Shown one piece after another: positions 12,921 through 64,000 of a stretch of DNA of 64,000 nucleotides (its first letter is position 1; each line of letters starts with the position of its first letter). Location: positions 58,874,567 through 58,938,566 of the forward strand of contig NC_091135.1 in NCBI RefSeq assembly GCF_041381155.1, in the 5' to 3' direction. The translations under genes were made by a program, and so were the position numbers. The stretch is from Argopecten irradians. Its lineage: Eukaryota > Mollusca > Bivalvia > Pectinida > Pectinidae. Under the pieces are notes generated by a model. The model saw nothing but the letters and a program-made list of their open reading frames with translations, did no database searches and had not been told where the DNA came from.

Positions 12921-14612
12921 TTATTTATGATGGAGACTCAGTACTTTGGTGGATCTATATTGATAATGAAGACTCAGTACTTTGGTGGATCTATATTTAT
13001 GATGGAGACTCAGTACTTTGGTGGATCTATATTTATGATGGAGACTCAGTACTTTGGTGGATCTATATTTATGATGAAGACTCAGTACTTTGGTGGATCT
13101 ATATTTATGATGAAGACTCAGTACTTTGGTGGATCTATATTTATGATGAAGACTCAGTACTTTGGTGGATCTATATTTATGATGAAGACTCAGAACTTTG
13201 GTGGATCTATATTTATGATGGAGACTCAGTACTTTGGTGGATCTTATTTATGATGAGACTCATACTTTGGTGGATCTATATTTATGATGGAGACTCAGTA
13301 CTTTTTTTGTGAATCTATATTTATGATGAAGACTCAGTACTTTGGTGGATCTATATTTATGATGAAGACTCAGTACTTTTTTGTGAATCTAAATTTATGA
13401 TGAAGATCAGTATTTGGTGGATTATATAACTCAGTACTTTGATCTAATTTATGATGAGACTCAGTACTTGGTGGATCTATATTATGATGAGACTCAACTT
13501 TGGTGGATCTATATTTATGATGGAGACTCAGTACTTTGGTGGATCTATATTTATGATGGAGACTCAGTACTTTGGTGGATCTATATTTATGATGGAGACT
13601 CAGTACTTTGGTGGATCTATATTTATGATGGAGACTCAGTACTTTGGTGGATCTATATTTATGATGGAGACTCAGTACTTAAGTGGATCTATATTTATGA
13701 TGGAGACTCAGTACTTTGGTGGATCTATATTAATGATGAAGACTCAGTACTTTGATGGATCTATATTTATGATGGAGGCTCAGTACTTTTTTGTGAATCT
13801 ATATTTATGATGAAGACTCAGTACTTTGGTGGATCTATATTTATGATGAAGACTCAGAACTTTGGTGGATCTATATTTATGATGAAGACTCAGTACTTTG
13901 GTGGACCTATATTTATGATGAAGACTCAGTACTTTGGTGGATCTATATTTATGATGAAGACTCATTACTTTGGTGGATCTATATTTTTGATGGAGACTCA
14001 GTGCTTTGGTGGATCTATATTTATGATGAAGACTCAGTACTTTGGTGGATCTATATTTATGATGAAGACTCAGTACTTTGGTGGATCTATATTTATGATG
14101 GAGACTCAGTACATTAGTGGATCTATATTTATGATGAAGACTCAGTACTTTGGCGGATCTATATTTATGATGAAGACTCAGTACTTTGGTGGATCTATGT
14201 TGATGATGGAGACTCAGTACTTTGGTGGATTTATATTTATGATGGAGACTCAGTATTTGGTGGATCTATATTTTTGATGAACATGTGACTTATGATGGAG
14301 ACTCAGTACTTTTGTGAATCTATATTTTTGATGAAGACTCAGTACTTTGGTGAATCTATATTTATGATGAAGACTCAGTACGTTTTTGTGAATCTATATT
14401 TATGATGAAGACTCAGTGCTTTGGTGGATCTATATTTATGATGAAGACTCAGTACTTTGGTGGATCTATATTTATGATGAAGACTCAGTACGTTTTTGTG
14501 AATCTATATTTATGATGAAGACTCAGTGCTTTGGTGGATCTATATTTATGATGAAGACTCAGTACTTTGGTGGATCTATATTTATGATGGAGACTCAGTA
14601 CTTTGGTGGATC
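12921..14612. repeat. 36-bp minisatellite, about 47 units, overlapping the 3' end of the MARVEL-like gene
   Basis: Units contain GACTCAGTACTTTGGTGGAT followed by CTATATTTATGATG. Most are intact in length, with A/G differences (GGAGACT or GAAGACT) and a few shortened or TTTTTGTG variants around 13240-13500 and 14290-14520. Because 36 is a multiple of three, long frames stay open through it on the + strand (MMETQYFGGSIF repeated). These are not taken as genes. The unit nearest the gene supplies its last codons and stop. Confidence 0.97.
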
Positions 14613-21782: not shown

Positions 21783-24154
21783 ATGATGTCCGGACTTCAG
21801 AAGTCGGGCTATCTACAAGTGAAGCAACCGTCAAGCATTAAAGGACGAAAGCTAAAGGTAAGCACACTATTCTATATCAATCACGTATTTTGGTGTCAAA
21901 GAACAATATTATTTTTCTGTTTCGCATTTTATTTCTAGAAAAGTTTTCATAATGTTATTACAAGTACAGTATAACCAGTCCTTGTCAATGATCCTTGTTA
22001 ATGCCGATGTACATTGCATGCCATTTTACTTCTTAATGTATGATACAGTAATTAAACATGTAAACCTGTATAATCCAGAAACTTGGCTATACCGGCTGAA
22101 TATGCTGTAATCAAACATGTAAACATGTATCAATTAGAAACTTGGCTATACCAGCTGAATATGCTGTAATTAAACATGTAAACCTGTATAATCCAGAAAC
22201 TTGACTATACCGGCTGAATATGCTGTAATTAAACATGTAAACATGTATAATCCAGAAACTTGGCTATACCGACTGAACATGCTGTAATTAAACACGTAAA
22301 CCTGTATAATCCAGAAACTTGGCTATACCGACTGAACATGCTGTAATTTACATGTAAACCTGTATAATCCAGAAACTTGGCTATACCAGCTGAATATGCG
22401 GTAATCAAACATGTAAACCTGTATAATCCAGAAACTTGGCTATACCGGCTGAACATGCTGTAATTAAACACGTAAACCTGTATAATCCAGAAACTTGGCT
22501 ATACCGGCTGAACATGCTGTAATTAAACATGTAAACATGTATCAATTAGAAACTTGACTATACCGGCTGAACATGCTGTAATTCAACATGTAAACATGTA
22601 TAATTTAGAAACTTGGCTATACCGGCTGAACATGCTGTAATCAAACATGTAAACCTGTATAATTTAGAAACTTGGCTATACCGGCTGAACATGCTGTAAT
22701 TAAACATGTAAACATGTATTAATTAGAAACTTGGCTATACCGGCTGAACATGTTGTAATTAAACATGTAAACATGTATCAATTAGAAACTTGGCTTTACC
22801 GGCTGAACATGCTGTAATTAAACATGTAAACATGTATAATCCAGAAACTTGGCTATACTGGCTGAACATGCTGTAATTAAACATGTAAACATATGTAATT
22901 TAGAAACTAGGCTATACCGGCTGAATATGATGTAATTAAACATGTAAACCTGTATAATCCAGAAACTTGGCTATACCGGCTGAACATGCTGGTCTCGGCG
23001 GCATCTGGTTTAGACAAGTTACACTATAAATAACGAACGGATCATGTTTCGTATTTAGAGGGGTATTTTTTTGGTCTAAAATGTTGGGTTTTTTTCACAA
23101 AATTATTTCAAATATGTGTACTACCATTTATATTTCAACGATATTCTTTTGATATGAATTATTTTTCATTATTTTGTTCTTTTTGCTTAGATATTGCTAC
23201 AATATTTATATAAACCTTATTAATAAAAGTTTTTGTATCACGAATACTTTCAGAGCTTAAATATCATCTTTCAATGCATCATTTGTAATAAAGTGATACA
23301 TGTGTACTTTGATTGTTAAATATCGCATATGACTCTGGATTACATGAAAATGAAAAACACAGAAAGTTACGTATCGTAACTGATTTTTCAATTCTATTTG
23401 TGTGCTAATGTACATAATTGTATTGCTTAAGAGTCAAACTTAACAAACATCAATTTACAATAAGAGATGGAATCAACTGCATCAGTAACTCTCCTAAATA
23501 AAACAAGTTTTGTTTTCAATATATTTTATATCAGATGCAACATTCATCATCATTAAGAACATAATATGTAAATATGACAAGTAATGGTGTAGCTGTATAG
23601 GCACTATTACAAAAACAAAACCGTAACAGTGGACAATATGTCACCGTCAAGACGTCATAATTAATGCTAATGTTATCATGACGTCAAACTAGCAGATTCC
23701 ATGCAATGTAGTTTGAGTTATAGTCTAAAACACAACACATACGATTATTCGTTTAGAACTTCTGTCGTCTTTATCGGACGGATATATTTTAAAATGAAAG
23801 TATATTAGGAGGTGAAATTATCACCTCGAGCAGCATACTGGTTATAAAATAGCTCTCTCCCTCTCACTCCCCCATCTCTCTCTTTCTCTTTCTTCCCTAA
23901 CTCTCTCCCTCTCACTCCCCCATCTCTCTTTCTTCCCTGACTCTCTCCCTCTCACTCCCCCATCTCTCTCTTTCTTCCCTAACTCTCTCCCTCTCACTCC
24001 CCCATCTCTCTCTTTCTCTTTCTTCCCTAACTCTCTCCCTCTCACTCCCCCATCTCTCTCTTTCTTCTCTAACTCTCTCCCTCTCACTCCCCCATCTCTC
24101 TCTTTCTTCCTTAACTCTCTCCCTCTCACTCCCCCATCTCTCTCTTTCTTCCCT

Positions 24155-29907: not shown

Positions 29908-32718
29908 CCTATCAGACTGACGTTAACCATATTATTGCATTCGACAACTGATGTTTATTCTTCTTAGTTATGTAAACATACTTTCCATATTGGAAACGGC
30001 AATCTGTTGGGACGCTTCTGCCGAAAATATGTGGTGCCCACATTTGAACTAAATACAAAGAAACGTAAGAACGTTTTCAATGTAAATTATATGTATCTCA
30101 AATGTTATACTGTTGCTATGTTACAATATAGAATACATTGTCGTCCATTGAAAGTATCATTTTAGAACATCCCATGTTGATAACGTAATGATTTACCTTT
30201 AAAATTATATAAAAAAAGATAAAACAGCTGATTTGTCGATTCGTTATGTAATTGTACTGGTCATTCTATAGTAACCCTTATTTGTATCAGCCACACTTCC
30301 ATATTAAACTAAACTTTTGTTTTGGTAAACAAAATAATAACGGTCCTATATTTCGTCACGGATTTTAAGTTTAATTCGAATTCACCTTGCATAAATCACC
30401 ATTCATAAAGCATAAGAAATTGTTGTTAAAAACACGAGATGCCATCGCCACAATCATATAGTGATAACTCCAAATTTCTGGTCCGTTACAAAATAAATGA
30501 TATTGCTTCTAATGGCATGTTCCCAATATTTTAATATCACTTGGAAATAATAAGCCTTACTACTTTCTCCTTCTAAAACGATACTAAAAAAATCTTTGTG
30601 TTTATCGCTAAGAATATCAGCCTGGCAAACCATCACTTCCTTTGTCTGGTTAATCATAACTTCCTTGAAATTCATATACCGGTATTTTCCTCCACCTCCA
30701 TACTAGCTGTACTTAGTTATCAAGTAGTGGCTTCAGCAACGTACACAAGACACACGAAAAGGAAATGGTGGTGTTTGTGGTGGTTATCTTTTATTGTTGG
30801 AATCAGAAACAGATACATCGGTTATTCGTTTAGTTCGATATCACATTTCCGTTTACAATAATTCATCTCGAGAACATCTTACGTCTAATAGTATAATTCC
30901 TACCTAACCTAAAATGGATATTTATATTGGCTTTTGCTAGACACCAGCCGGTTGTTCAAAGGATGATTAACTAAATCACTTGATTAGTGAAATTTCCATT
31001 TCTAATTTGCTGCATTTTTTAAAATTATATATACACTAAAATCAGCAAGTAAGTAAAGAATTGGGTTCTTAAGAATCTTGTAAAATTGTTATATTTGTAT
31101 TACCAGAAATTATTTTATCTCAATTTAAAGATTGTCGTTAAACTATGATTAGCCTAATCACCTTTTGAACAACTGTTCATTTTGAAAACAGATGTCGCCA
31201 TACAATATCTACAATAACTTGTTACAACCATACATTGATATATTAGCATTTCAATATACCTAAATGCAATTTGTAAGAATAAATTATATTTATATGATTT
31301 CTACAAGTATTATGATAATGTCCAGGTGGAAATAATGGAATTAGTTTTGATGTTATAACCAGTAACATTCATCAGCACTAGACAACAGCACAAGGCTACC
31401 CTGTTTATCAGTTATTGTACAGTGTATCTATGGATATTGTACTTCATCCCAAAAGTAATACTTATACAGAACAATCAAGCATATCGATACATCATTGGGA
31501 TAATTATAGTCATATGCGATAAACAACACAAAGCCTAGCTCTGCTAAACGTATAATGATAATTAAACCATAAAAATAAGTCACTTTTGCTTATCATTAAT
31601 ATTTAATTATAAGATACATAACAAAGCACACTCTGGGATAGTTATAATCCATTATACAGTAAAAAAAACCACAGTAACAATGCATGTGAACACTACATAA
31701 AAGTTCGTTATCCAACGGGTAGACACGATTATAAAACAATACCTCATCAAATGAAATTAAGAAATTTATTCAGTTTTAAACTTTGGACATTATAATGCAA
31801 TTCTATCTACTTATACTTGCTATTCTCTTTTCGTCATCATATACATTTAACATTTTTCGGTATAAAATAAATTTCAGAAGCGTTTAAGTAAATTAATTTA
31901 TCGGTACTTAAAACAATACTTTAAGAGATATCCAATGACCTACAGGCCAAAACTGATTAACATTTATCTTCAATTTGTAAAAGAGTTGTTAAAAGTATGA
32001 GACACCCTAATCCGTATTTATTTAAGGTCGTCTACATAACATCATTATTATTTTACCATACCAAGCATTAACACGTGCGTTTACACGTGCACATTACTAT
32101 GAAGCGCCGTTTATAAATATTGAACACAGTTTCCATATTGTTGTCTTTCATAACATAACTTATTTTGCTAACTGAAGTTTATTTTACAACACAAAATATT
32201 GAATGACATTTAAGTAGTTTGAAAGCATAAATACAATTACTTTTATATCAACCAATAGAAAAGCATATAACATAGATAAACAAAGGTGTCCACACACATA
32301 AAAACATTTTCAACCAATAAAGACATGTGAACAATAACTACATACATATATGTATACACGTAGTTTCCATGGGTAACTTAAAAATACTGGTATCTTAGTA
32401 CGTATATTATGCTAGGTAAACACAATTACATAATCATTAAATCAAACTTTTATATGTATATTTTGGCATTTTAATATCACTCCACAATTTACTTTTACAA
32501 ATTACAGCTTAAATATGTTTAAATAGAGTTGTAATACATCTACACTACTCAACAATATACGGAATGATTTTTTTGCTTGGATTCCTATTCAACACACTGT
32601 AATCTGTCCTTCTACTGGTAAAAGTCCGAGTATAATAGATCCCTCTAAAATTCTACATAACATTGAATAACTTAACAATTCACTTCTGCTCTCAATGACA
32701 AAGAATGATGCTTGTACC
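29908..32718. other. DOK 3' UTR and intergenic sequence
   Basis: AT-rich and without credible exons. The only recognisable unit is the inverted-repeat element at 30949-31175. The DOK and Rab genes are convergent, so this is shared 3' flank. Confidence 0.5.
30949..31175. mobile_element. Short inverted-repeat element, copy 2
   Basis: Left CGGTTGTTCAAAGGATGATT and right TAATCACCTTTTGAACAACT are inverted copies. The interior TTACCAGAAATTATTTTATC matches the element at 11938-12127. The copies differ by internal indels, so they are not recent duplicates. Confidence 0.7.
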
Positions 32719-33316
32719 TTTACTCTAAGATACACTGAATGAGAATTGCCCTCTACTCAAAGAAACATTGAATGAGGTTTGCCCCTCTACTCAAAGATAC
32801 TCTGAATGAGGTTTGCCCCTCTACTGAACGATGCCCTGAAAGAGTTTTGCCCTCCACTCAAAGATACACTGAATGAGGTTTGCCCTTTACTCAAAGATAC
32901 ACTGAATGAGGTTTGCCCTTTACTCAAAGATACACTGAATGAGGTTTGTCCCTTTACTCAAAGATACACTGAATGAGGTTTTCCCTTTACTCAAAGATAC
33001 ACTGAATGAAGTTTGCCCTCCACTCAAAGATACACTGAATGAGGTTTGCCCCTCTCATCAAAGATATAGTGAATGAGGTTTGCCCTTTACTCAAAGATAC
33101 ATCGAATGATGTTTGCACTTTACTCAAAGATACACTGAATGAGGTTTGCCTTTTACTCAAAGATACACTGAATGAGGTTTGTCTCTGCTCAAAGATAAAT
33201 TGAATGATCATTGCTCCTCTATTCAATGATACACTAAACGATGCTTGCCTGTCTGCTTAGGTACACTGAATGAAATTTGCTCCTCTACTCACCGATATAC
33301 CGAGTGAGTTTGCCCC
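32719..33316. repeat. 33-bp minisatellite, about 18 units
   Basis: Units contain CTCAAAGATACACTGAATGA and GGTTTGCCC, and decay toward the right end near 33240-33316. Intergenic. The minus-strand frame across it (KRQTSFSVSLS repeated) reflects the period of 33. Confidence 0.95.
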
Positions 33317-35033: not shown

Positions 35034-38000
35034 CTACATTATACTAGACCGACTACCCATATCATTCCTTCGTGATCCACCACAACATCTACGTCTCTGG
35101 TCAGAGTCATTGTTCAAATTAATTGTACTATTGTTTATTCTTGATGGCCCCATATCATCTGGAGGTAACTGTCTCGCTGAAAAAGTTGTTGAGTCAAAGT
35201 TAAAAGAGAACAAGTCCTCACTACCTTTTCAATAGGTAATAATGATCTAGTGATTTATAGCTGTTTATGTTCCAATAATACCTGTTTAAAATTTGATGGT
35301 TAAATCTATTATCTGAGATTTTTGTAAAATGTCATCCATTCTAAGCCAACACAAAAATGTAAACAAACCCTTACCTATTTCTGTAAAAAGTTCTGGTACA
35401 TTTACAGCTGTCAAGGCACTCGTTTCTATAAAAATTGCATTCCTCTGTCGGGCATATTCCTCAACATCTGAAACAAGTTTACACACAATAATTTGTGTAC
35501 TGGTATCATACAAGGTCACAGATATAAGAAAGTCATAGACATCCAGTTTCAGTAAGAATATATACGTACCTCTGTAAGGAACCTCCCAAGATCTACATAC
35601 CTTTGTTAGGAACCTCCCAAGATCTACATTCCTCTGTTAGGAACCTTCAAAGATCTACTTACCTCTGTAAGGAACCTCCCAAGATCTACATACCTTTGTA
35701 AGGAACCTACCAAGATCTACGTATACGTACCTTTGTAAGGAACCTCCCAAGATCTACGTAATGTTGTAAGGAACCTCTCAAGATCTACATACCTCTGTAA
35801 GGAAGCTCCCAAGATCTACATACCGTTGTAAGGAAGCTCCCAAGATCTAAGTACCTCTGTAAGGAACCTCCCAAGATCTACGTACCTTTGTAAGAAACCT
35901 CCCAAGATCTACGTACCTTTGTAAGAAACCTCCCAAGATCTACATACTGTTGTAAGGAAGCTCCCAAGATCTACTTACCTTAGTAAGGAACCTCCTAAGA
36001 TCTAAGTACCTCTGTAAGGAACCTCCCAAGATCTATGTACCTCTGTAAGGAACCTCCCAAGATCTACATACCTTTGTAAGAAACCTCCCAAGATCTACGT
36101 ACCTTTGTAAGAAACCTCCCAAGATCTACATACTGTTGTAAGGAAGCTCCCAAGATCTACGTACCTTAGTAAGGAACCTCCTAAGATCTAAGTACCTCTG
36201 TAAGGAACCTCCCAAGATCTACGTACCTCTGTAAGGAAGCTCCCAAGATCTATGTACCTCTGTAAGGAACCTCCCAAGATCTATGTACCTCTGTAAGGAA
36301 CCTCCCAAGATCTACGTACCTCTGTAAGGAACCTCCCAAGATCTATGTACCTCTGTAAGGAACCTCCCAAGATCTACGTACCTCTGTAAGGAACCTCCCA
36401 AGATCTACGTACCTCTGTAAGGAACCTCCCAAGATCTACGTACCTCTGTAAGGAACCTCCCAAGATCTACGTACCTCTGTAAGGAAGCTCCCAAGATCTA
36501 TACTTGTAAGAACCTCCCAAGATCTACTACCGTTGTAAGGAACCTCCAAGATCTACGTACCTTTAAGGAACCTCCCAAGATCTACGTACCTTAGAACAAG
36601 TCCCTCATAAGACCTATAACTGTAAGGAACCTCCAAGATCTACTTGAGAACCTCGTATATGGAACCTCCAAGATCTACACTTTAAGAACCTCCAAGATCT
36701 ATACCTCTGTAAGGAAGCTCCCAAGATCTACATACCTCTGTAAGGAACCTCCCAAGATCTATGTACCTTTGTAAGGAACCTCCCAAGATCTACATACCGT
36801 TGTAAGGAACCTCCAAGAGATCTAAGTACCTTTGAAAGGAACATTCCAAGATCTATGTACCTTTGTAAGTAACCACCCAAGACCTGCCTACCTTTGTGAG
36901 GAACCTCCCAAGATCTACATACCGTTGTAAGGACCCAGAACTCCCAAGATCTATGTACCTTTGTAAGGAACCTCCCAAGATCTACGTACCTTTGTAAGAA
37001 ACCTCCCAAGATCTACATACTGTTGTAAGGAAGCTCCCAAGATCTACTTACCTTAGTAAGGAACCTCCTAAGATCTAAGTACCTTTGTAAGGAACCTCCC
37101 AAGATCTACATACCATTGTAAGGAAGCTCCCATGATATACATACCTCTGTAAGGAAGCTCCCAAGATCTACGTACCTCTGTAAGGAACCTCCCAAGATCT
37201 ATGTACCTCTGTAAGGAACCTACCAAGATCTACATACCGTTGTAAGGAAACTCCCAAGATCTATGTACCTTTGTAAGGAACCTCCCGAGATCTACATGCC
37301 GTTGTAAGGAACCTCCAAAGATCTATGTTCCTCTGTAAGGAACCTCCAAAGATCTACGTACCTCTATAAGGAAGCTCCCAAGATCTACTTACCTTAGTAA
37401 GGAACCTCCTAAGATCTAAGTACCTCTGTAAGGAACCTCCCAAGATCTATGTACCTCTGTAAGGAACCTCCCAAGATCTACATACCTTTGTAAGAAACCT
37501 CCCAAGATCTACATACCTTTGTAAGAAACCTCCAAAGATCTACATACTGTTGTAAGGAAGCTCCCAAGATCTACGTACCTTAGTAAGGAACCTCCTAAGA
37601 TCTAAGTACCTCTGTAAGGAACCTCCCAAGATCTACGTATCTTTGTAAGGAACCTACCAAGATCTATGTACCTCTGTAAGGAAGCTCCCAAGATCTATGT
37701 ACCTCTGTAAGGAAGCTCCCAAGATCTATGTACCTCTGTAAGGAACCTCCCAAGATATACGTACCTCTGTAAGGAAGCTCCCAAGATCTATGTACCTCTG
37801 TAAGGAAGCTCCCAAGATCTACGTACCTCTGTAAGGAACCTCCCAAGATCTATGTACCTCTGTAAGGAACCTACCAAGATCTACATACCGTTGTAAGGAA
37901 CCTCCCAAGATCTACTTACCTTAGTAAGGAACCTCCCAAGATCTATGTACCTTTGTAAGGAACCTCCCGAGATCTACATACCGTTGTAAGGAACCTCCCA

Positions 38001-41000
38001 AGATCTATGTACCTCTATAAGAAAGCTCCCAAGATCTACGTACCTCTGTAAGGAACCTCCCAAGATCTATGTACCTCTTGTAAGGAACCTCCCAAGATCT
38101 ACGTACCTTTGTAAGGAACCTCCCAAGATCTAAGTACCTTTGTAAGGAACCTCCCAAGATCTATGTACCTTTGTAAGTAACCACCCAAGATCTACCTACC
38201 TTTGTAAGGAACCTCCCAAGATCTACATACCGTTGTAAGGAACCTCCCAAGATCTAAGTACCTTTGTAAGGAACCTCCCAAGATCTACATACCGTTGTAA
38301 GGAACCTCCCAAGATCTAAGTACCTTTGTAAGGAACCTCCCAAGATCTAAGTACCATTGTAAGGAAGCTCCCAAGATCTAAGTACCTCTGTAAGGAACCT
38401 CCCAAGATCTACGTACCTTTGTAAGAAACCTCCCAAGATCTAAGTACCTTTGTAAGGAACCTCCCAAGATCTACATACCTTTGTAAGGAACCTCCCAAGA
38501 TCTAAGTACCTTTGTAAGGAACCTCCCAAGATCTAAGTACCTTGTAAGGAAGCTCCCAAGATCTACAGTACCTTTGTAAGGAACCTCCCAAGATCTACGT
38601 ACCTCTGTAAGGAACCTCCCAAGATCTATACGTACCTTGTAAGGAAACCTCCCAAGATCTATGTACCTTTGTAAGGAACCTCCCAAGATCTACGTACCTT
38701 GTAAGGAACCTCCCAAGATCTACGTACCTTTGTAAGGAACCTCCCAAGATCTACGTACCTTTGTAAGGAACCTCCCAAGATCTACTACTTGTAAGGACTC
38801 CAAGTCTTGTACCTCTGTAAGGAACCTCCCAAGATCTACGTACCTTGTAAGGAACCTCCCAAGATCTACATACCTTTGTAAGGAACCTCCCAAATCTACA
38901 TACTGTTGTAAGGAACCTTCCCAAGCTACCTCTTTAAGGAAGCTCCAAAGATCTACGTACCTCTATAAGGAACCTCCATAGATCTACGTACCTCTGTAAG
39001 GAAGCTCCCAAGATCTACATACCTCTGTAAGGAACCTCCCAAGATCTATGTACCTTTGTAAGGAACCTCCCAAGATCTACATACCGTTGTAAGGAACCTC
39101 CAAAGATCTAAGTACCTTTGAAAGGAACATTCCAAGATCTATGTACCTTTGTAAGTAACCACCCAAGACCTGCCTACCTTTGTGAGGAACCTCCCAAGAT
39201 CTACATACCGTTGTAAGGAACCTCCCAAGATCTATGTACCTTTGTAAGGAACCTCCCAAGATCTACGTACCTTTGTAAGAAACCTCCCAAGATCTACATA
39301 CTGTTGTAAGGAAGCTCCCAAGATCTACTTACCTTAGTAAGGAACCTCCTAAGATCTAAGTACCTTTGTAAGGAACCTCCCAAGATCTACATACCATTGT
39401 AAGGAAGCTCCCATGATATACATACCTCTGTAAGGAAGCTCCCAAGATCTACGTACCTCTGTAAGGAACCTCCCAAGATCTATGTACCTCTGTAAGGAAC
39501 CTACCAAGATCTACATACCATTGTAAGGAAACTCCCAAAGATCTATGTACCTTTGTAAGGAACCTCCCGAGATCTACATACCGTTGTAAGGAACCTCCAA
39601 AGATCTATGTACCTCTGTAAGGAACCTCCAAAGATCTACGTACCTCTATAAGGAAGCTCCCAAGATCTACTTACCTTAGTAAGGAACCTCCCAAGATCTA
39701 CATACCTTTGTAAGAAAACCTCCCAAGATCTACATACTGTTGTAAGGAAGCTCCCAAGATCTACGTACCTTAGTAAGGAACCTCCTAAGATCTAAGTACC
39801 TCTGTAAGGAACCTCCCAAGATCTACGTACCTTTGTAAGGAACTCCCAAGATCTACGTACCTTGTAAGAAACCTCCCAAGATCTACGTACCTTTGTAAGA
39901 AACCTCCCAAGATCTACGTACCTACTGTTGTAAGGAAGCTCCCAAGATCTACGTACCTTGTAAGGAACCTCCAAGATCTAAGTACCTTGTAAGGAACCTC
40001 CAAGATCTACGTACCTTTGTAAGGAACCTACCAAGATCTATGTACCTCTGTAAGGAAGCTCCCAAGATCTATGTACCTCTGTAAGGAAGCTCCCAAGATC
40101 TACGTACCTCTGTAAGGAACCTCCCAAGATCTACGTACCTCTGTAAGGAAGCTCCCAAGATCTATGTACCTCTGTAAGGAAGCTCCCAAGATCTACGTAC
40201 CTCTGTAAGGAACCTCCTAAGATCTATGTACCTCTGTAAGTAACCTACCAAGATCTACATACCGTTGTAAGGAACCTCCCAAGATCTACTTACCTTAGTA
40301 AGGAACCTCCCAAGATCTATGTACCTTTGTAAGGAACCTCCCGAGATCTACATACCGTTGTAAGGAACCTCCAAAGATCTATGTACCTCTATAAGAAAGC
40401 TCCCAAGATCTACGTACCTCTGTAAGGAACCTCCCAAGATCTATGTACCTTTGTAAGGAACATTCCAAGATCTATGTACCTTTTTAAGTAACCACCCAAG
40501 ACCTACCTACCTTTGTAAGGAACCTCCCAAGATCTACATACCGTTGTAAGGAACCTCCCAAGATCTAAGTACCTTTGTAAGGAACCTCCCAAGATCTACG
40601 TACCTCTGTAAGGAACATCCCTAGATCTATGTACCTTTGTAAGGAACCTCCCTAGATCTACGTACCGTTGTAAGGAACCTCACAAGATCTAAGTACCTTT
40701 GAAAGGAACATTCCAAGATCTACGTTCCTGAGTAAGGAACCTCCTAATATCTACGTACCTTTGTAAGGAACCTCCCAAGATCTACGTACCTTTGTAAGAA
40801 ACCTCCAAAGATCTAAGTACCTTTATAAGGAACCTCCCAAGATCTACATACCGTTGTAAGGAACCTCCCAAGATCTAAGTACCTTTGTAAGGAACCTCCC
40901 AAGATCTAAGTACCATTGTAAGGAAGCTCCCAAGATCTACATACCTCTGTAAGGAAGCTCCCAAGATCTACGTACCTCTGTAAGGAACCTCCCAAGATCT

Positions 41001-44000
41001 AAGTACCTTTGTAAGGAACATTCCAAGATCTATGTACCTTTGTAAGTAACCACCCAAGACCTACCTACCTTTGTAAGGAACCTCCCAAGATCTACATACC
41101 GTTGTAAGGAACCTCCCAAGATCTAAGTACCGTTGTAAGGAACCTCCCAAGATCTAAGTACCTTTGTAAGGAACCTCCCAAGATCTACGTACCTTTGTAA
41201 GAAACCTCCCAAGATCTACATACTGTTGTAAGGAAGCTCCCAAGATCTACTTACCTTAGTAAGGAACCTCCTAAGATCTAAGTACCTTTGTAAGGAACAT
41301 CCCAAGATCTACGTACCATTGTAAGGAAGCTCCCATGATCTACATACCTCTGTAAGGAAGCTCCCAAGATCTACGTACCTTTGAAAGGAACATTCCAAGA
41401 TCTACGTTCCTGAGTAAGGAACCTCCTAATATCTACGTACCTTTGTAAGGAACCTCCCAAGATCTACGTACCTTTGTAAGGAACCTCCAAAGATCTAAGT
41501 ACCTTTGTAAGGAACCTCCCAAGATCTACATACCGTTGTAAGGAACCTCCCAAGATCTAAGTACCTTTGTAAGAAACCTCCCAAGATCTAAGTACCATTG
41601 TAAGGAAGCTCCCAAGATCTACATACCTCTGTAAGGAAGCTCCCAAGATCTACGTACCTCTGTAAGGAACCTCCCAAGATCTAGGTACCTTTGAAAGGAA
41701 AATTCCAAGATCTATGTACCTTTGTAAGTAACCACCTAAGACCTACCCACCTTTGTAAGGAACCTCCCAAGATCTACGTACCGTTGTAAGGAACCTCACA
41801 AGATCTACGTACCTTTGAAAGGAACATTCCAAGATCTACGTTCCTGAGTAAGGAACCTCCTAATATCTACATACCTTTGTAAGGAACCTCCCAAGATCTA
41901 AGTACCTTTGTAAGGAACCTCCAAAGATCTAAGTACCTTTGTAAGGAACCTCCCAAGATCTAAGTACCTTTGTAAGGAGCCTCCCAAGATCTACGTACCT
42001 TTAAAAGGAACATTCCAAGATCTACGTACCTTTGTAAGGAACCTCCCTGAGATCTTCAAGGTCACATTTATTACCAGCCATGGCTAACACTATATTTGGT
42101 GAGGCATTCTTTCTTAACTCAGTGATCCATTCCTTCACAGCCCGGAATGTTTGCTAAACATCAGAGAATAATATCATAAGGTGTAGATTTCATTAAAAAT
42201 ATTCCAGCTCTGTCAATCTATGAATAATGGAAAGGTAGTGTTAAGAAAAGGATTTAAAGGAAACAACCTATGGTTTAAATGTAACAGTCTCTAGTTAAAT
42301 TAATGGTATTCTACTTAGCCTGTCACAAGTAAGGAATCAAATTTTTTCAGGGTAGAATTTCAGTCACTTCTAAAATCTCATCTTAATACAATTTGTGTAT
42401 GATGTAACCATAAAATTGGTATTGCCCAAGCTTATTTTTTTTCATAAAGAACGAAAGGTGATATTAAATGATAAAAAAATTTAAAAAAAAGTTGTAACAG
42501 CAGATGAGACTGGACTGGTATGATTAACATTATATATCATGCCCCCACCCTCTCAATTTCAAGAGGCATACATCATATAAATTGTTGCCAAAAGCTGAAT
42601 GGCTTACCTCCCTTGTGATGTCATATACTACAATGGCTGCAGCTGATCCTCTATAATACATAGGAGCCAGAGCTCTGTACTGTAAACAAAAGGCCATAAA
42701 TAGTTGTGTAAAAATAATTGTCAGAAAATTTATAAGGCGGGCAATTCATTAAATATTTGAATTTAAGAACAACATTATATCTCAATATAACATGCATATT
42801 AGCTGCAATATTGTAGCTCAAAAGACTTTTTGACAGACAATGATGTCATCTGTATAGCTACAATTGGTGCCTATTACTGCTAATGGAGCAAAGTATTGAT
42901 TATGCAAACCATTATAAAACGCTTGTTTGCATTTTTATGTACGTGTTTGATATCGCTTACCTATTAGGCAATAAAACTGAACCACATAAAATACCAAATT
43001 CTCATTGAGGCATTATTTTTTTACATAATACATATGAAGGTCATTCTGAAGGGAATTTATACGGCAAGTCCTCATATTGTGAATTTCACGTCTTGTGAGC
43101 GGTACGGTAGATATTAAGAATGGTAGTTAGGTTTGTTTTGGACTCAGTTCTACCCTGAGGGTAAATGATTAGGTAAATACTAGGTATGTTCAGTTCTACC
43201 CTGAGGGTAAATGATTAGGTAAATACTAGGTATGTTCAGTTCTACCCTGAGGGTAAATGATTAGGTAAATACTAGGTATGTTCAGTTCTACCTGAGGGTT
43301 AAATGATTAGGTAAATACTAGGTATGTTCAGTTCTACTCTGAGGGTAAATGATAAGGTAAATACTAGGTATGTTCAGTCTAACTTGAGGGTAAATGATTA
43401 GGTAAATACTAGGTATGTTCAGTTCTACCTTGAGGGTAAATGATTAGGTAAATACTAGGTATGTTCAGTTCTACTCTGAGGGTAAATGATTAGGTAAATA
43501 CTAGGTATGTTCAGTTCTACTCTGAGGGTAAATTATAAGGTTAATACTAGGTATGTTCAGTCTCAGTCTACTGAGGGTAAATGATTAGGTAAATACTAGG
43601 TATGTTCAGTTCTACCCTGAGGGTAAATGATTAGGTAATACTAGGTATGTTCAGTTCTACACTGAGGGTAAATGATTAGGTAAATACTAGGTATGTTCAG
43701 TTCTACCCTGAGGGTAAATGATTAGGTAAATACTAGGTATGTTCAGTTCTACACTGAGGGTAAATGATTAGGTAAATACTAGGTATGTTCAGTTCTACCC
43801 TGAGGGTAAATGATTAGGTAAATACTAGGTATGTTCAGTCTACCCTGAGGGTAAATGATTAGGTAAATACTAGGTATGTTCAGTCTACCCTGAGGGTAAA
43901 TGATTAGGTAAATACTAGGTATGTTCAGTTCTACTCTGAGGGTAAATGATTAGGTAAATACTATAGGTATGTTCAGTTCTACCCTGAGGGTAAATTATTA

Positions 44001-46934
44001 GGTAAATACTAGGTATGTTCAGTTCTACTCTGAGGGTAAATGATGAGGTAAATACTATAGGTATGTTCAGTTTTACACTGAGGGTAAATTATTAGGTTAA
44101 TACTAGGTATGTTCAGTTCTACTCTGAGGGTAAATTATAAGGTTAATACTAGGAATGTTCAGTCTAACTTGAGGGTAAATGATTAGGTAAATACTAGGTA
44201 TGTTCAGTCTAACTTGAGGGTAAATTATAAGGTAAATACTAGGTATGTTCAGTTCTAACCTGAGGGTAAATTATTAAGGTAAATACTAGGTATGTTCAGT
44301 TCTACCCTGAGGGTAAATGATTAGGTAAATACTAGGTATGTTCAGTTTTACACTGAGGGTAAATTATTAGGTTAATACTAGGTATGTTCAGTTCTACCTG
44401 AGGGTAAATGATTAGGTAAATACTAGGTATGTTCAGTCTACCTGAGGGTAAATTATTAGGTAAATACTAGGTATGCTCAGTTCTACCTGAGGGTAAATGA
44501 TTAGGTAAATACTAGGTATGTTCAGTTCTACCCTGAGGGTAAATGATTAGGTAAATACTAGGTATGTTCAGTTCTACCCTGAGGGTAAATGATTAGGTAA
44601 ATACTAGGTATGTTCAGTTCTACCCTGAGGGTAAATTATTAGGTAAATACTAGGTATGTTCAGTTCTACACTGAGGTAAATGATTAGCTAAATCCTAGGT
44701 ATGCTCAGTTCTACCCTGAGGGTAAATTATTAGGTAAATACTAGGTATGTTCAGTTCTACACTGAGGGTAAATGATTAGGTAAATCCTAGGTATGTTCAG
44801 TTCTACCCTGAGGGTAAATGATTAGGTAAATACTAGGTATGTTCAGTTCTACCTGAGGGTAAATGATTAGGTAAATACTAGGTATGTTCAGTTCTACACT
44901 GAGGGTAAATGATTAGGTAAATACTAGGTATGCTCAGTTCTACCCTGAGGGTAAATGATTAGGTAAATACTAGGTATGTTCAGTTCTACCCTGAGGGTAA
45001 ATGATTAGGTAAATACTAGGTATGTTCAGTTCTACACTGAGGGTAAATGATTAGGTAAATACTAGGTATGCTCAGTTCTACCCTGAAGGTAAATGATTAG
45101 GTAAATACTAGGTATGTTCAGTTCTACCCTGAGGGTAAATTATTAGGTTAATACTAGGTATGTTCAGTTCTACCCTGAGGGTAAATGATTAGGTAAATAC
45201 TAGGTATGCTCAGTTCTACCCTGAGGGTAAATGATCAGGTAAATACTAGGTATGTTCAGTTCTACCCTGAGGGTAAATGATTAGGTAAATACTAGGTATG
45301 TTCAGTTCTACCCTGAGGGTAAATGATTAGGTAAATACTAGGTATGTTCAGTTTTACACTGAGGGTAAATGATTAGGTAAAAACTATAGGTATGTTCAGT
45401 TCTACTCTGAGGGTAAATGATTAGGTAAATACTTTAGGTATGTTCAGTTCTACCCTGAGGGTAAATGATTAGGTAAATACTAGGTATGTTCAGTTCTACT
45501 CTGAGGGTAAATGATGAGGTAAATACTAAGTATGTTCAGTCTACCCCGAGGGTAAATGATTAGGTAAATACTATAGGTATGTTCAGTTCTACTCTGAGGG
45601 TAAATGATTAGATAAATACTAGGTATGTTCAGTTCTACTCTGAGGGTAAACCATCTCCTTATCCTTCATATCCACATACATATGGCATGATCGGGTGGTA
45701 TAGTGGTTAAGCCACTCGCCTTTCACCTAGCCGGCCGGGGTTCGATCCTGTGATGTCGTGAGGCTGTATTGCATAGGTAGCCATATGTAATACAGCCTCA
45801 GGCTACTTGAGTGTATTGTCTGAAACCAGCAAGTATGCACATCCATAGGTATGAGAGAAAATGTAGACTATACAATTTGTATCTACAGATTATCAGAGAT
45901 ATTTATCTAAATCTCTGAGATTATATATAGTGTTGGACTCATTCTCAATTTTAATCGATGATCGATCGATAATAATTTTCCTAAAGACTATCGATGATGA
46001 AAGGTAATAATCAATTAATTAAATGGGAGATAATTTGTGTTTATTTCATACTTTTCTGAACCTTTCTTATGTAATATACATGTACAAAACAACATTTCTC
46101 TATAATTCAAATGTGAAGCAAAGAAAAAAAACTGCTTTAATTAATACTGTTGGTTCATCTTTCTGGGTTTTTTTTGCAGATGAATTAAAAGGTTAATTAA
46201 ATATATAATTTTCATTTTTTTTTTTATCTTTTTATTTTTATTTTTTTTTTTTTTTTGTAAATGATATTTACATCATTATATTTAAGGACTGAGAAGATTT
46301 AGAAGAAATGTCTTAAATTTTTGTTTAAAAAATATGACAGCTCATGAAATGACAGCCCGCTTTTGAAATTAAGACAGTAACCCTCGCACCCGCAAGCTAC
46401 ATGTACATCAAAGGCTGCGGCGGCAGATATCAATGGAAAATCAGTCGTTGTCAAACGTCACGGTCGGTGCACAAACACAAATGCTCTCGCAACAGATTTG
46501 TCCAAAACCCAGAGTGACAAATCCTTCTCACTTGAATCCTTGATTGTAGATACTGTGGATATAATTTCATTCCTGTTTTACCTAATCATGTATATTGTTA
46601 ACCTTATCAAAACTATGTCACACATGTTATCCTTGAATAAAGTGTGACGGAATGACATTATTTGTGTGTATAATGTATATATATATTTATCTGTGATCAC
46701 ATGACTCTCTTCCGTCAAATCGAAAGTTACAGAAAGATCATAATGATCAAGAACTCATATACACACATATAACGTTTCAAAGGAAAATACACAGTATAGA
46801 GACATCAAGTGTTGGGAACAAACAAAATCGCAGAGCTTCTTAAGAATCAGGAAATCATTTTTACAATGTAAACATCGACACACTAGTCGATCACTTACGC
46901 CCAAGAGGCATAGTTTCACTTCCCTCACTGCCAT
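35034..46934 (-). CDS. RAB22A: Rab22/Rab31-like small GTPase with P-loop/switch exons not found
   Basis: Endosomal Rab of the Rab5/22/31 group. Exons found on the minus strand: 46899-46934 (MAVREVKLCLLG), 42608-42679 (YRALAPMYYRGSAAAIVVYD plus ITRE), 42030-42153 (QTFRAVKEW, ending GNKCDLEDLREVPYK), 35375-35467 (VEEYARQRNAIFIETSALTA plus VNVPELFTEI) and 35034-35176 (ARQLPPDDMGPS to the stop). Visible motifs are the switch II end, NKCD (guanine specificity) and ETSAL (G5). The ALAPMYYRGSAAA and MAxREvKxCLLG signatures fit Rab22A best. Between the first and second exons the family needs about 50 residues (GxxGxGKS P-loop, switch I, WDTAGQE). No such exon is present; a 46-bp minisatellite lies there. 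Phases are 0 on both sides, so joining the visible exons keeps frame but gives no nucleotide-binding loop. The C-terminal CC is followed by 15 more residues. It is either a real gene with assembly loss or a decaying copy. Confidence 0.85.
35564..42054. repeat. 31-bp minisatellite of about 208 units filling a Rab intron
   Basis: Units on the + strand contain TTTGTAAGGAACCTCCCAAG followed by ATCTACGTACC, with recurrent variants (TCTGTAAGG, CGTTGTAAGG, TTAGTAAGG, GAAGCTCCC). The intron is 35468-42029, and all but about 100 bp of it is array. On the gene strand each unit reads GGGAGGTTCCTTACAAAG then GTACGTA, the same as the end of the upstream exon (42030-42054) and its 5' splice site. Short frames across the array (LGRFLTKVHRSWEVP types) are not genes. 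Confidence 0.98.
36721..40440. repeat. Higher-order duplication inside the 31-bp array
   Basis: The ordered set of variants at about 36721-38050, including the rare GTAAGTAACCACCCAAGACC, GCCTACCTTTGTGAGG and CTCCCATGATATACATACC units, recurs in the same order at about 39001-40440, an offset near 2.3 kb. Rare GAAAGGAACATTCCAAGATC units recur again at 40690, 41385 and 41815, suggesting shorter later duplications. Confidence 0.8.
43145..45650. repeat. 46-bp minisatellite, about 54 units, in the Rab intron
   Basis: Units contain GTTCAGTTCTACCCTGAGGG then TAAATGATTAGGTAAATACT and AGGTAT. Variants include ACTCTGAGG, ACACTGAGG, AACTTGAGG and ATTATTAGG. It lies between the Rab exons at 42608-42679 and 46899-46934. 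On the gene strand each unit carries a TTTACCCTCAG acceptor-like string. Confidence 0.97.
45688..45875 (+). mobile_element. tRNA-Glu-derived SINE
   Basis: GGGTGGTATAGTGGTTAAGC gives an A box and GGGGTTCGATCC a B box, spaced as in a tRNA. The anticodon-arm region CCTTTCACC matches tRNA-Glu(UUC). A non-tRNA body follows, with the inverted pair GAGGCTGTATT and AATACAGCCTC. The acceptor stem does not close, so this is a SINE, not a functional tRNA. The right end is not certain. Confidence 0.7.
45876..46898. other. Remainder of the Rab first intron
   Basis: Contains ATCGATGATCGATCGATAAT near 45955, T-rich tracts near 46207-46256, and a more GC-balanced block at 46380-46560 that might be a transposon remnant. 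I searched the minus strand here for the Rab P-loop and WDTAGQE coding sequence and did not find it. Confidence 0.45.
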
Positions 46935-50204: not shown

Positions 50205-50395
50205 AACTGAATCATAAGGGGCCATATACGTCGAAGGTTCTTTCCCATACCTACATACAATAGCTACAGGTTGTTCCCCTTTGTACACGCTAGTAACTCT
50301 ACACGTATAACTGGAGTAGAGGAAATGTAGTCCATATCGGGGTTCGAACCTGGGACTTCTGACCACTAGCCAGCTGCTCTACCAATAGTTTTATT
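50205..50395 (-). mobile_element. tRNA-derived SINE, minus strand
   Basis: On the minus strand TTGGTAGAGCAGCTGGCTAG gives an A-box-like start and CCCAGGTTCGAACCCC a clear B box. A unique body follows toward lower coordinates. The 5' end of the tRNA part is eroded, so the parent tRNA is not certain. Confidence 0.6.
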
Positions 50396-50624
50396 GTTGT
50401 ATTGCGTCAATGATAATGTTGTTTGATATTGTTGTTTTTAAATATGTTGTCCGATGCATGCCTGCTATACAAAAGTATATTGCATATAGTTTCAAGCAAA
50501 ATACATGTAATTGACACTAAATATTTACGTGGTACCGTATGTTCATACATTTGGGTCAAAATTCTAAAATAAAATAAAAAACAAAACAAAAAAACGATTG
50601 GTTCGTCCGTTGTCAGTATAATGT

Positions 50625-55732: not shown

Positions 55733-58700
55733 AAATAAAAACAATAACGACTGACTAGTGAGCGCTTTCGCTCCATTCAAGGGAGCTCTTCAGTCTAGCT
55801 CCCTTGAATGGGGCGAAAGCGCTCACTAGTCAATCATTATTGTTTTTATTTCTTATAGATTTCGTCCATAAGGATTTTTCTTTAAATATATCATATATAT
55901 ATATACATTGTATAATATGTCAGTATTATAACATTTACATGTTCATCTCTGTATAATTCAATATCATAGCCATCAAAAAACGGCGTAGGTTCTTGTAATG
56001 AACCCCGTGAACAAGGATTTGCAATAGCAAAGGTCGCGAGACCAATATTCAAACGAACCTGATAGGAAATCCTGGTTCTAACGGTAAAACAACAGTGTAG
56101 CATCAAAACCAGCACTCCTATTAGTTTATAGTCCGTCAAACATTTTCTGTTTTGGATATTTCTAATTCATTCCTGTCTTTCTACATAAGATAAAAAGAAA
56201 AGAAAACGTAGTATACTTGTCACTATAACAAAACCTAGGTACATTCCTCTGATGTGCTATATAAATTACTGATACAAGCCAATCCAATATTATATTCGGC
56301 ATTTAAACATATCTTATTTAGTCATACCATTGATGTCAAAAATATTTCTAATTTGAAGACAGACATATTCTGCCGTCCACATGAAGGGTTTTCAATAAGC
56401 CAATTGATTAAAGCCGAACAAAATGGACTAGACACATTTCGAACATAAGCCGAAAATTAGGAAAATTGCTGCTTTTGCGCAGATAAGTTTTAAGCTGACA
56501 ATGGTAATATTTTATATTTTGACAATATAGCAATTCCAATAATCAAAACAATTACCAATGAGTTGTAACTATTACTTATCGAATAGACTCATGACTCAGA
56601 GGGCGGGGCGGGATGTGACATGTCTCACACGTGAGTGAAGTGGGCCTATCTCAGAGATGGACGGGTGTTTATCTTAAACTTTTCCTATCGCCATTGTAGT
56701 AAACAGTCTCTCCCGATATCACGTTTTATTGTGGTAGTGATCCATTTTTCACATCACTAATAGTGGTTTTTTTCTTTCTCTCAATAGAATGGGTACTTCG
56801 CTCCATCATTCCATCCATAGTATTCTGAAGGGGGGGGGGGGGGGGTATTGCTCCCTATGCAGAACGAGGTATGGCCCCTTTCCTCCATGACACTCTAACG
56901 AAGGTATAAGTCCGCATCCTGACATGATAACAAAGAACATGTTAGGTACATCTAACACATCGTAAACGTCGTATAAAACCTAACGCTCTTGGTGTTGTGT
57001 AAACTTTGCCTTGCTGACCCTCGCGGAGTGGCAGCTCTGTCTATTCCCCACCAGTGTCAGACCGACTCTGATAGCTGATGTGCACGGGTAATTACACGTG
57101 TTGTTCCTAGGTGTATGGGTCAGTTAGATTAAGATAACATTACATGTAGCAATGGACTCGGTTGACCTCGCGAAACAGACGATGAAAAATTGCTAAACAC
57201 GATAATTTTATTAAAAAAAACCTTAGAGGGAATTTTTATTGCTTGTGTCTTTGCAATAATTGGTAGACTAAAAAGTGTCCGAAATTGCACAAGACTTGAG
57301 GAAGCATGCGTTTTAGGGGAGGAGACGTTGGTCGAGGTCTGCTTTACTTAGATACAGCTGATGTGTCAGAAAGTGTTAGTTGGCATGTTTCCTTTCTTAG
57401 TTATTAAATTACCATTAGCAAGTCGACCCCACACAACTTTCTCACAGGTTGTTAGTAAATATTTGCGTATTTCGCTTCTTCTACCATCCTTTTGCAGCAG
57501 GTCTCTGGCATTTCATATGTTAACAATCTTCTTCTACCATCCTTTTGCAGCAGGTCTCTGACATTTCATATGTTAACAATCTTCTTCTACCATCCTTTTG
57601 CAGCAGGTCTCTGACATTTCATATGTTAACAGTCTTCTTCTACCATCCTTTTGCAGCAAGTCTCTGACATTTCATATGTTAACAAAGCACATCTTGTGTC
57701 ACATCTTACAAAACTGAGGCAGAGCTCACAAAGCATAATATTTTTATATGACACATTTATTCATTTTTATCAAACTTCGTAATAACCAAAATGTGTCGCA
57801 CACATTTTGTGTGAATGGATGACATTTCTGTTTTATCTTACCAAATAACAACTTCTATTCTTTTCTCACCAAAGCAAAATCTATAATATTCAGACAAGAC
57901 CAAGGTTCAAAAGGGATTTAACAATGTTACATGGTGTTCGGGGGTTCGCTGTAATGCTGCGACAGACGTTGATAAAGAGAGCTTGGTGCCATACAATGGC
58001 CTTTTTTCAGTACATATAGTAGTAATTGTCACGGACGGAGAGTCTAATGTTAGGTACAACAGGGTTTGACATAATATTGGTCACACAGTTCGAGAGCCAA
58101 GAGGTTGTGATTTTGTGCCGTTTTCCTATGTTTCTCCTTAGAAAAACATCAAATGGTATATCACCAAGAAGTGATAACTGTGGGAACTGGTGAATCAACA
58201 GAAGTGCGAGAGGTCATTTCCATCAACTTGTCCACACGTTTATGCGGCTGCACACTGCTCATTAAACTGATAAATCCGGAATGTTATCCGGAACCCTTTT
58301 CATACTTTAGTATATCTGCTCCATTGTCTCGACTACCACCGCCTTGTTGACTCCAGCGCCTTGACAAACTATTTACAGAGCAGCAGATAAGACAGTGTAT
58401 TGAGAGAGAATTCGCTTCCTATCTTTAACACAAGGCTTACTTCCAATCCAGGGATGTTGACGGCTTTTTGATAAACCTCAGATTCCAGCGACGACTGAAA
58501 AATAGGACTGGTAAACGTCATCAACACGTACGGCACTTCCTATCTCCGAATTATTCAAAATTAATCTGAGTTGTGGAATACATATCATACATTGGACAGA
58601 AAACAATAAAACAGCAAACTTTTAAATCATTATTTTCAGAAAATCAATCAGGTTAAGTTAGAGGAACAAAAAAGAACAAAAAAAAAATACATTCTGGATA

Positions 58701-60157: not shown

Positions 60158-61480
60158 GTCCGTTTGTTAAGGGTTAAGTTGTTATGGGGTTGTTTGTAGA
60201 CATAGTGGGTGTATTGCGTGTCAATAATATCACTGTTTATTTTCTTATTACACAATCAAGGTGTGATATCTTTCAAATGAATATACAATAAGTCACATTA
60301 TTAGAAAACATGTACGGGTGATATTCGTGTTGGTGTGAAACAAAATGAAACGTGGGAAAAGTGTTGTATGTAAAATTACAGTATATTAAATAATGATAAG
60401 ACATTATCTGATATCAAAACATATTCTATAAACATAGAGACAATATTTGTAGCAACACAACATAACATTATTATGATTAATTATTTACACTATAAAAGAG
60501 TATACAGTATTATACACTACAGTCCTATTTTATTTATCTTTTTTATATTTTCATGCAGACTACTTTGGATTATTAATACAATTATAATTAATGTGTTGAT
60601 CTTTATAATATAAGAAACAATAATAATACCAAAGATAGTAAATTTCTCTTATATTACAATGCTCTGATCATCTACATAAATATAATAAATAATGGAACTG
60701 CTTTATTGAAGACGATTTAAACTTTGTTGTTCCAACGATTTTCCTTCATTGAATTTCGTTGGACGCTTATGCTATGAAGAAACTGAAATTAATCCAAAAA
60801 TAAAATGACAAAATTTCAACATTAAACATTTGACATTTCTGTTGCATTCACATAACTTCTTCTGTTATATTCAAAATTAAACTGACAACTCAGACAAACT
60901 GGCTAAAAGCCGTCTGTACAACGCTTACATTGTATAGTATTTTTAAACAATAACAATGATAGACATAATCATTGTTCTCTATTTCTAGATAGGATAGTTT
61001 AGTATCTATCGTTGACACCTGTGTTCCAGTAAACCTGACTCATACTATTTGTATGTGTTAATCGTTTGATGTTCCCCGCATTGTGTAAAACAGTTAGATA
61101 CAATTTGTAAGTATATAGCGGCTCTTAAAAGCCTGCAACCTTTTTATCACAAGGGTCGTAAATCTAACGCATTTCTATCAGTACAAAAAGTAACACCAGC
61201 GGTTACTCCGGGACTAACAAAATGATGTCCGTGCTTTATTCAAGCCTATTTTCATTTACTGTGTATAAAGCATTGTGTTAGCATTATGAAGTGTACCTTG
61301 GGGTAAAGAAATTAAATTAAACAACTCTCAATTGAACAAGCTAACACTAATATGTTAACAGTCACACATAGGTAAAGTTCTAGCACCAGGAGATAGTTTA
61401 TCACATTTACTGATCAAATCAACATTATAATGTGTTCTGCTCCATTAATTTGGTGTCTTTAGCTTACCATTCATATCACA
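60158..61480. other. AT-rich non-coding sequence
   Basis: No exon, RNA gene or clear repeat seen between the third exon of the putative gene and the 50-bp array. Confidence 0.5.
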
Positions 61481-63391
61481 TGTTCATTAGTTAGGATATA
61501 GTTACTAGACAATAACACTTTATCCTAACATGTTCATTAGTTAGGATATAGTTACCAGACAATAACACTTTATCCTAACATGTTCATTAGTTAGGATATA
61601 CTTACCAGGCAATAACACTTTATCCTAACATGTTCATTAGTTAGGATATAGTTACCAGACAATAACACTTTATCCTAACATGTTCATTAGTTAGGATATA
61701 GTTACCAGACAATAACACTTTATCCTAACATGTTCATTAGTTAGGATATAGTTACCAGACAATAACACTTTATCCTAACATGTTCATTAGTTAGGATATA
61801 GTTACCAGGCAATAACACTTTATCCTAACATGTTCATTAGTTAGGATATAGTTACCAGACAATAACACTTTATCCTAACATGTTCATATTAGTTAGGATA
61901 TATAGTTACCAGACAATAACACTTTATCCTAACATGTTCATTAGTTAGGATATAGTAGTTACCAAACAATAACACTTTATCCTAACATGTTCATTAGTTA
62001 GGATATAGTTACCAGACAATAACACTTTATCCTAACATGTTTTTAGTTAGGATATAGTTACCAGACAATAACACTTTATCCTAACATGTTCATTAGTTAG
62101 GATATAGTTACCAGACAATAACACTTTATCCTAACATGTTCATTAGTTAGGATATAGTTACCAGACAATAACACTTTATCCTAACATGTTCATTTGTTAG
62201 GATATAGTTACCAGACAATAACACTTTATCCTAACATGTTCATTTGTTAGGATATATTACCACAATAACACTTTATCCTAACATGTTCATTAGTTAGGAT
62301 ATAGTTACCAGACAATAACACGTGTTCATTAGTTAGGATATACTTACCAGACAATAACACTTTATCCTAACATGTTCATTAGTTAGGATATAGTTACCAG
62401 ACAATAACACTTTATCCTAACATGTTCATTAGTTAGGATATAGTTACCAGACAATAACACTTTATCCTAACATGTTCATTAGTTAGGATATAGTTACCAG
62501 ACAATAACACTTTATTCCTAACATGTTCATATTAGTTAGGATATAGTTACCAGACAATAACACTTTATCCTAACATGTTCATTAGTTAGGATATAGTTAC
62601 CAGACAATAACACTTTATCCTAACATGTTCATTAGTTAGGATATATTACACAGCATAACACTTTCCTAACATGTTCATTAGTTAGGATATAGTTACCAGA
62701 CAATAACACTTTATCCTAACATGTTCATTAGTTAGGATATAGTTACCAGCACACACTTATACACTGTTCATTAGTTAGGATATAGTTACCAGACAATAAC
62801 ACTTTATCCTAACATGTTCATTAGTTAGGAATATAGTTACCAGACAATAACACTTTATCCTAACATGTTCATTAGTTAGGATATAGTTACCAGACACAAT
62901 AACACTTTATCCTAACATGTTCATTAGTTAGGATATAGTTACCAGACAATAACACTTTATCCTAACATGTTCATTAGTTAGGATATAGTTACCAGACAAT
63001 AACACTTTATCCTAACATGTTCATTAGTTAGGATATAGTTACCAGACAATAACACGTGTTCATTAGTTAGGATATAGTTACCAGACAATAACACTTTATC
63101 CTAACATGTTCATTAGTTAGGATATAGTTACCAGACAATAACACTTTATCCTAACATGTTCATTAGTTAGGATATAGTTACCAGACAATAACACTTTATC
63201 CTAACATGTTCATTAGTTAGGATATAGTTACCAGACAATAACACTTTATCCTAACATGTTCATTAGTTAGGATATAGTTACCAGACAATAACACGTGTTC
63301 ATTAGTTAGGATATACTTACCAGACAATAACACTTTATCCTAACATGTTCATTAGTTAGGATATAGTTACCAGACAATAACACTTTATCCT
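61481..63391. repeat. 50-bp minisatellite, about 38 units, with built-in hairpin
   Basis: Units contain TGTTCATTAGTTAGGATATA, GTTACCAGACAATAACACTT and TATCCTAACA. TATCCTAAC at the end of one unit pairs perfectly with GTTAGGATA of the next across ATGTTCATTA. Most units are almost identical; three shortened ones (near 62320, 63053 and 63292) join ACACGTGTTCATTAG. Confidence 0.98.
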
Positions 63392-64000
63392 ATTTTGCCC
63401 ATAGTGTGTTGGTTCAATGTGAATTTGAGTAGGAATGGTTTTAATTACAGTATATAATTTGTGAAATTGAACGCATTTCATTTGTATAACAAAATACGAG
63501 TTCATAAATATGATTAAATATATATAAGCCAACCATATGCAGATTTCTTATTATGTTCGATTAACTTTTTTAATTTAATATAAATGTCGGAACATTTTTA
63601 TAGACCGCTTGTCGATATCAAAACAATATTACTCGTGTTTCATTTCGAAGATAACACCTTTCTTATGGTCCAATAAATCTTCACTTTTCCTTTAGTCCAA
63701 CATAGACAGGAGCAACGTGCGCTGAATGCTTCGTCGCCTTCCCGATGACTATTTTCACTTTCTATATAGAAAGCATTGTGCTGGCTACAACGATAATTGA
63801 CATATCATGATCATGTTCACCTCCGGCGAAACAAGAGCTGTTGCCTGATAACGTCGTTGTCAGTCCCACTTGTCAGTCTTTATCTAATACTGATCGAGCT
63901 GGAAAAACAACTACCTCACACTGAAGCGTGTCAAAACCATATACCCATCCCGTACAGTTTGATAGTACCGAATAGAACAGTGTTGGTATAGTGTTTTGTT
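63392..64000. other. Non-coding right edge
   Basis: No supported gene. The segment near 63825-63870 (CGGCGAAACAAGAGCTGTTG) resembles the end of a dispersed repeat. A TTTCCTTTAG acceptor near 63695 leads into a frame that stops after about ten codons. Confidence 0.4.

Follow-up and report, generated by a model that had tools for sequence, protein, structure and literature searches.

Tandem repeats that span an exon-intron boundary are already known. In amphioxus, minisatellite-like repeats of this kind, termed mirages, have been described in Adh3 and in globin genes (PMC3087553), and further examples are given for PGBD5 and troponin C (PMC3902484). The Adh3 units measure 10 to 72 bp, the mirages are unstable in length, and regular splicing is reportedly undisturbed (PMC3087553). 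Here, we describe such a repeat in what the coding sequence identifies as a Rab22/31-like gene, on the minus strand of a 64,000-nucleotide stretch of contig NC_091135.1 (positions 58,874,567 to 58,938,566; this whole stretch is referred to as the window). The 6,562-bp intron between exons 4 and 5 of this gene (42029-35468) is occupied, except for ~100 bp, by a 31-bp array whose unit joins the end of exon 4 to its 5' splice site. Like the amphioxus mirages (Adh3, BflGb6, BflGb9, troponin C, and PGBD5), the array has a boundary-spanning unit, is continuous with the authentic boundary of a real exon, and keeps splice signals (AG/GT) in many of its copies. In contrast, its copies number ~209, versus 3 to 6 in BflGb6 and 2 to 7 in PGBD5 (PMC3087553, PMC3902484). 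The array is a new and very large member of the mirage kind, and the kind itself was known before. The original prediction, that no such case had been described, therefore gives way to the published mirages (PMC3087553), and copy number is what looks new: our literature search, made in open-licence papers only, met no comparable number. We favor the reading, with a probability of roughly 0.75, that the array is a mirage-type minisatellite, close to neutral, which grew from the exon 4 end together with its 5' splice site.

Tandem Repeats Finder (TRF) called the 31-bp array at 35563-42055, with 210 copies and 86% matches, and a wraparound alignment resolved this sequence into one copy in the exon and 209 in the array, the latter running from 42022 to 35563 on the minus strand. 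The predicted array of about 200 copies in one Rab intron was thus recovered by both methods. Copy 1 of the alignment, the founder (42023-42054, minus strand), consists of the last 25 bases of exon 4 and the first 7 bases of the intron (32 bp). It includes the true 5' splice site (AAG/GTACGT; 42028-42029, minus strand), which pairs with U1 at 7 of 9 positions with a duplex energy of -8.0. Copy 2 begins at 42022, directly behind the founder's GTACGTA, and the array (35563-42022, minus strand) then continues up to 95 bp of single-copy intron (35468-35562, minus strand) that end in the acceptor TTGTTTCAG, read directly. Mean identity of the 209 copies to their consensus was 92.1%; the copies fall into 96 distinct types, 5 are exact, and 180 are free of indels. 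Within the intron, the exact 18-mer of the exon end occurs 36 times, the 18-mer followed by GTACGTA only 6 times, and CCTTACAGAGGTAC 45 times. Exact repetition, as first claimed, was too strong a description, and a unit of about 24 coding bases plus the splice site was right as to the junction and wrong as to the exonic length, which is 25 bases.

Aligned to the unit, the end of exon 4 with its donor gave 31 identities over 33 columns, with one substitution and one gap, for a score of 54, relative to a maximum of 24 among 2,000 mononucleotide shuffles. This result upholds the earlier view that an exon-intron junction, in sense orientation, was amplified to form the array. Exon 4 alone scored 40 against the unit, and the other exons tested scored 10 to 20. 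Among the window matches listed (up to six for each of eight arrays compared), the longest that the unit has at a distance of over 40 bp from its array was 10 bp. Exon 4 itself (QTFRAVKEW...DLREVPYK plus one base; 42030-42153, minus strand), which ends in the founder, was identified by tblastn (42153-42040; E, 1.9e-12) and by its translation. Its final residues, DLREVPYK, correspond to DIREVPLK in Rab31 and DVREV in Rab22A, with D-x-REV shared with Rab22A and D-x-REVPxKD with Rab31. The fragment comprising exons 3 to 5 matched the Pfam Ras family (E, 1.8e-29) and, among solved structures, Rab-22A (2.6e-36), Rab-31 (3e-34), and Rab-5B (4e-30). Where the exon has GATCTCAGGGAGG, the array state is GATCTTGGGAGG, a loss of one base that breaks the Rab frame. 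Because the exon codes for conserved Rab22/31 residues and the one-base loss in the array breaks the frame, the sequences show that copying ran from exon to array. A chance match or a late conversion was ruled out by the shuffle control together with the frame-breaking difference. Four copies carry GATCTCGGG (column 6), which may be an intermediate or may have mutated back.

Growth from the founder would have begun with a short tandem duplication straddling the exon 4 end and the adjoining 5' splice site, and unequal exchange and block duplication would then have amplified the unit into the intron to ~209 copies. Because the first copy is coding, growth would have been limited to the intron side. 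A run of nine copies is repeated without change 74 copies further on, and among long repeated blocks, which are 97 to 99.7% identical, one of 436 bp (98.9%) has a lag of 2,374 bp and another measures 317 bp (99.7%); such recurrence suggests block duplication, as unequal exchange would give. Tandem duplication across a splice signal is likewise a feature of intron gain by tandem genomic duplication (for example, PMC4974935, PMC2891723). That the intron itself arose in this manner, from a coding stretch with AG/GT that was duplicated in tandem, would fit the presence of AG/GT in 158 of the 209 copies and of CAGAGGT at 56 sites, as well as the proposal that mirages are a source of introns (PMC3087553). 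However, such an origin is very improbable: neither the acceptor nor the preceding 95 bp of unrelated sequence is a copy of the unit, alignment to the unit gives a score of 12 for exon 5 versus 54 for exon 4 with its donor, and an ordinary intron of ~102 bp remains once the array is set aside. Unlike the case of intron gain, in which the acceptor and part of the downstream exon derive from the unit, the Rab intron retains its own acceptor and the ~102 bp of other sequence, and no new intron was seen. For earthworm metallothionein introns, the available part of the report presents minisatellites and exon duplications, and a boundary unit is not described there (PMC12783039).

Given that the unit carries a 5' splice site, we scored the donor in each copy. 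The donor GT is kept in 198 of the 209 copies. Relative to the true donor, U1 duplex energy was as strong or stronger in 86 copies (stronger in 57), and a weight matrix of human frequencies gave an equal or higher score in 52 (higher in 22). Other donors found in the Rab gene had duplex energies of -7.2, -9.6, and -9.9. Retention of GT (94.7% of copies) ranks 12th among the 31 neighboring pairs of the unit. The least-kept pair is the CpG at +4/+5, kept in 31% (CG, 65; TG, 47; CA, 38; CT, 34; others, 25; n = 209), and TG and CA, the states expected from CpG decay, together account for 85 copies. The +5 G, as a rule the most informative donor position after GT, is the least-kept column of all (63%). 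From one end of the array to the other, donor strength was without trend (Spearman 0.08; P = 0.24). By these measures (GT rank, the +4/+5 CpG, and the strength trend), in copies that are not independent of one another, the donors showed no sign of selection, either for or against. For every one of the 198 GT-bearing copies, use of the distal donor would lead into a stop three codons beyond exon 4 and so truncate the protein, as had been predicted from AAA GGT ACG TAG. The hundreds of decoy donors of the original prediction are present as donor-like sequence; decoy action, in contrast, gained no support from their retention, in which selection for or against them was not seen, or from the accounts of the nearest cases, which report no disturbance of splicing (PMC3087553, PMC3902484).

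These donor data also bear on the possibility that the array is a splicing attenuator, whose donors compete for U1 or yield stop-bearing messages so that array length tunes the level of Rab protein. The near-complete retention of GT, the 57 copies whose pairing with U1 is energetically stronger than that of the true donor, and the stop shared by all GT-bearing copies speak for such a role. We nevertheless consider it unlikely, since the +5 G is the column kept least, donor strength is without trend, and known mirages are reported not to disturb splicing. Under the mirage-type reading, the copies would resemble donors simply as copies and not through retention for a use. Splicing would occur mostly at the first, exon-proximal donor; occasional use of a distal donor would give an early-stop message, probably removed by nonsense-mediated decay, and the array would remain close to neutral. 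The minisatellite of the human 6-16 gene (IFI6) is said to have a 12-base unit in ~26 copies, with some of its donors used. Like the Rab array, this interferon-induced gene's splice-donor minisatellite has, as cited in other papers, multiple splice donors (Turri, Cuin and Porter 1995).

Each unit contains weak splicing signals, including a CTTAC branch-point-like site and the donor, and CAG/AG acceptor-like sites are found at the 56 positions with CAGAGGT. The 16 bases preceding these sites include 10 or 11 pyrimidines, and those preceding the exon 4 acceptor include 11. A GT donor lies 33 bases beyond CAGAGGT in 50 of the 56, and 43 of these 50 cassettes lack a stop in the Rab frame (a typical product is EVRRSWEVPYR). 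Splicing from the true donor to an array CAG, with exit at the donor of the next copy, would therefore insert a 33-base in-frame cassette. On this arrangement of signals, the array might conceivably be a store of in-frame micro-exons or of recursive splice points that vary the Rab protein beside its SAK region, a role to which we give very little credence. The acceptor-like sites follow from the make-up of the unit and do not in themselves speak for their use.

Several observations weigh against a near-neutral mirage. First, 57 of the 209 copies outscore the true donor by U1 duplex energy and 22 do so by the weight matrix, 9 copies carry AGGTAAGT, and the data offer no reason why such donors should be bypassed. 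Second, the 34 CT copies need a cause other than CpG decay. Third, predicted local folding does not clearly hide the array donors: although 81% of the 198 are predicted to be less accessible than the true donor, their median accessibility (0.017) exceeds the regional median (0.006). This folding result is weak and points both ways, and structural hiding was set aside as an explanation. Fourth, the Rab gene as assembled has no P-loop exon and may therefore lie outside ordinary constraint.

The P-loop/switch-region exon was not found at 42680-46898, between exons 1 and 3; among the matches listed by tblastn for the missing part, the best (E, 0.84) lay elsewhere. This stretch contains a 2.5-kb array of a 46-bp unit (43144-45650), and because of that array, the exon may have been lost during assembly. 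The same concern extends to the 31-bp array. The 29 indel-bearing copies cluster, with 16 adjacent pairs relative to a mean of 3.9 and a maximum of 13 in 20,000 permutations, and 18 of 49 deleted bases fall within GGG or AAA runs. Clusters were noted at 36524-36728, 38563-38953, and 39853-40007, often with single bases missing from GGG or AAA. These clusters are probably residual sequencing errors, and because indel-bearing copies cluster as residual long-read errors would, the copy number is only approximate. There is thus a small chance that the array is partly an assembly product, its copies real but their number and some variants wrong, as the indel clusters and the missing P-loop exon would suggest. 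However, 96 copy types and duplicated blocks are unlike a simple assembly loop, which the 96 types rule out as the whole explanation, and an error of this sort would affect the count of copies and not the existence of the array.

The remaining Rab exons, all on the minus strand, frame the array on both sides; tblastn evidence for the exons was taken from the best 40 matches of a first search and the best 30 of a second. Upstream in the gene, the candidate exon 1 (MAVREVKLCLLG; 46899-46934) had a tblastn E of only 0.068, with a start codon and the donor GTAAGT present, and exon 3 (YRALAPMYYRGSAAAIVVYDITRE; 42608-42679) had an E of 1.6e-11 and a donor at 42607. Downstream of the array, exon 5 (DVEEYARQRNAIFIETSALTAVNVPELFTEI; 35375-35467) had an E of 1.4e-6 and a donor at 35374, and exon 6 (35034-35176) supplies the C-terminal end, with an open frame at 35037-35228 and an acceptor read directly. 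Rab22/31 proteins end in cysteines. At the C terminus of this gene (35034-35090), RRRCC is followed by 15 residues and then the stop, and the cysteine pair is not terminal.

A second array in the window also overlaps a coding end. This 36-bp array (12922-14612) begins on the last five codons and the stop (DPPKY-stop) of a minus-strand gene that codes for a MARVEL-like domain (E, 1.5e-7; 32.0 bits, slightly below the Pfam cutoff of 32.8). The 18-mer that these codons and the stop form has 22 exact copies in the window, all inside the array. Of the eight arrays compared, two overlap a coding end, and on a plain reading, a duplication that spans the edge of a coding region can expand outward only. 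The window is rich in minisatellites generally (22048-22991, 59 bp; 32717-33315, 33 bp; 43144-45650, 46 bp; 57475-57685, 53 bp; and 61478-63392, 50 bp), and its G+C content is low, ranging from 0.30 to 0.44 per 2 kb, which would speak against an amphioxus host. By eye, 45690-45790 and 50330-50400 resemble tRNA-derived short interspersed nuclear elements (GGTTCGAACCCC-type B box). ARAGORN, run with the bacterial code, reported no tRNA genes in the window, and known RNA families gave no match there at the gathering score. The unit pattern was absent from viral contigs, which carries no weight for an animal gene.

This array shows how large a repeat built on a splice junction can become within a coding gene. 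It is also a natural test of donor choice, with about two hundred near-identical donors behind one exon that differ at +4, +5, -2, and -3. If the host is not a cephalochordate, mirages are not a peculiarity of amphioxus.
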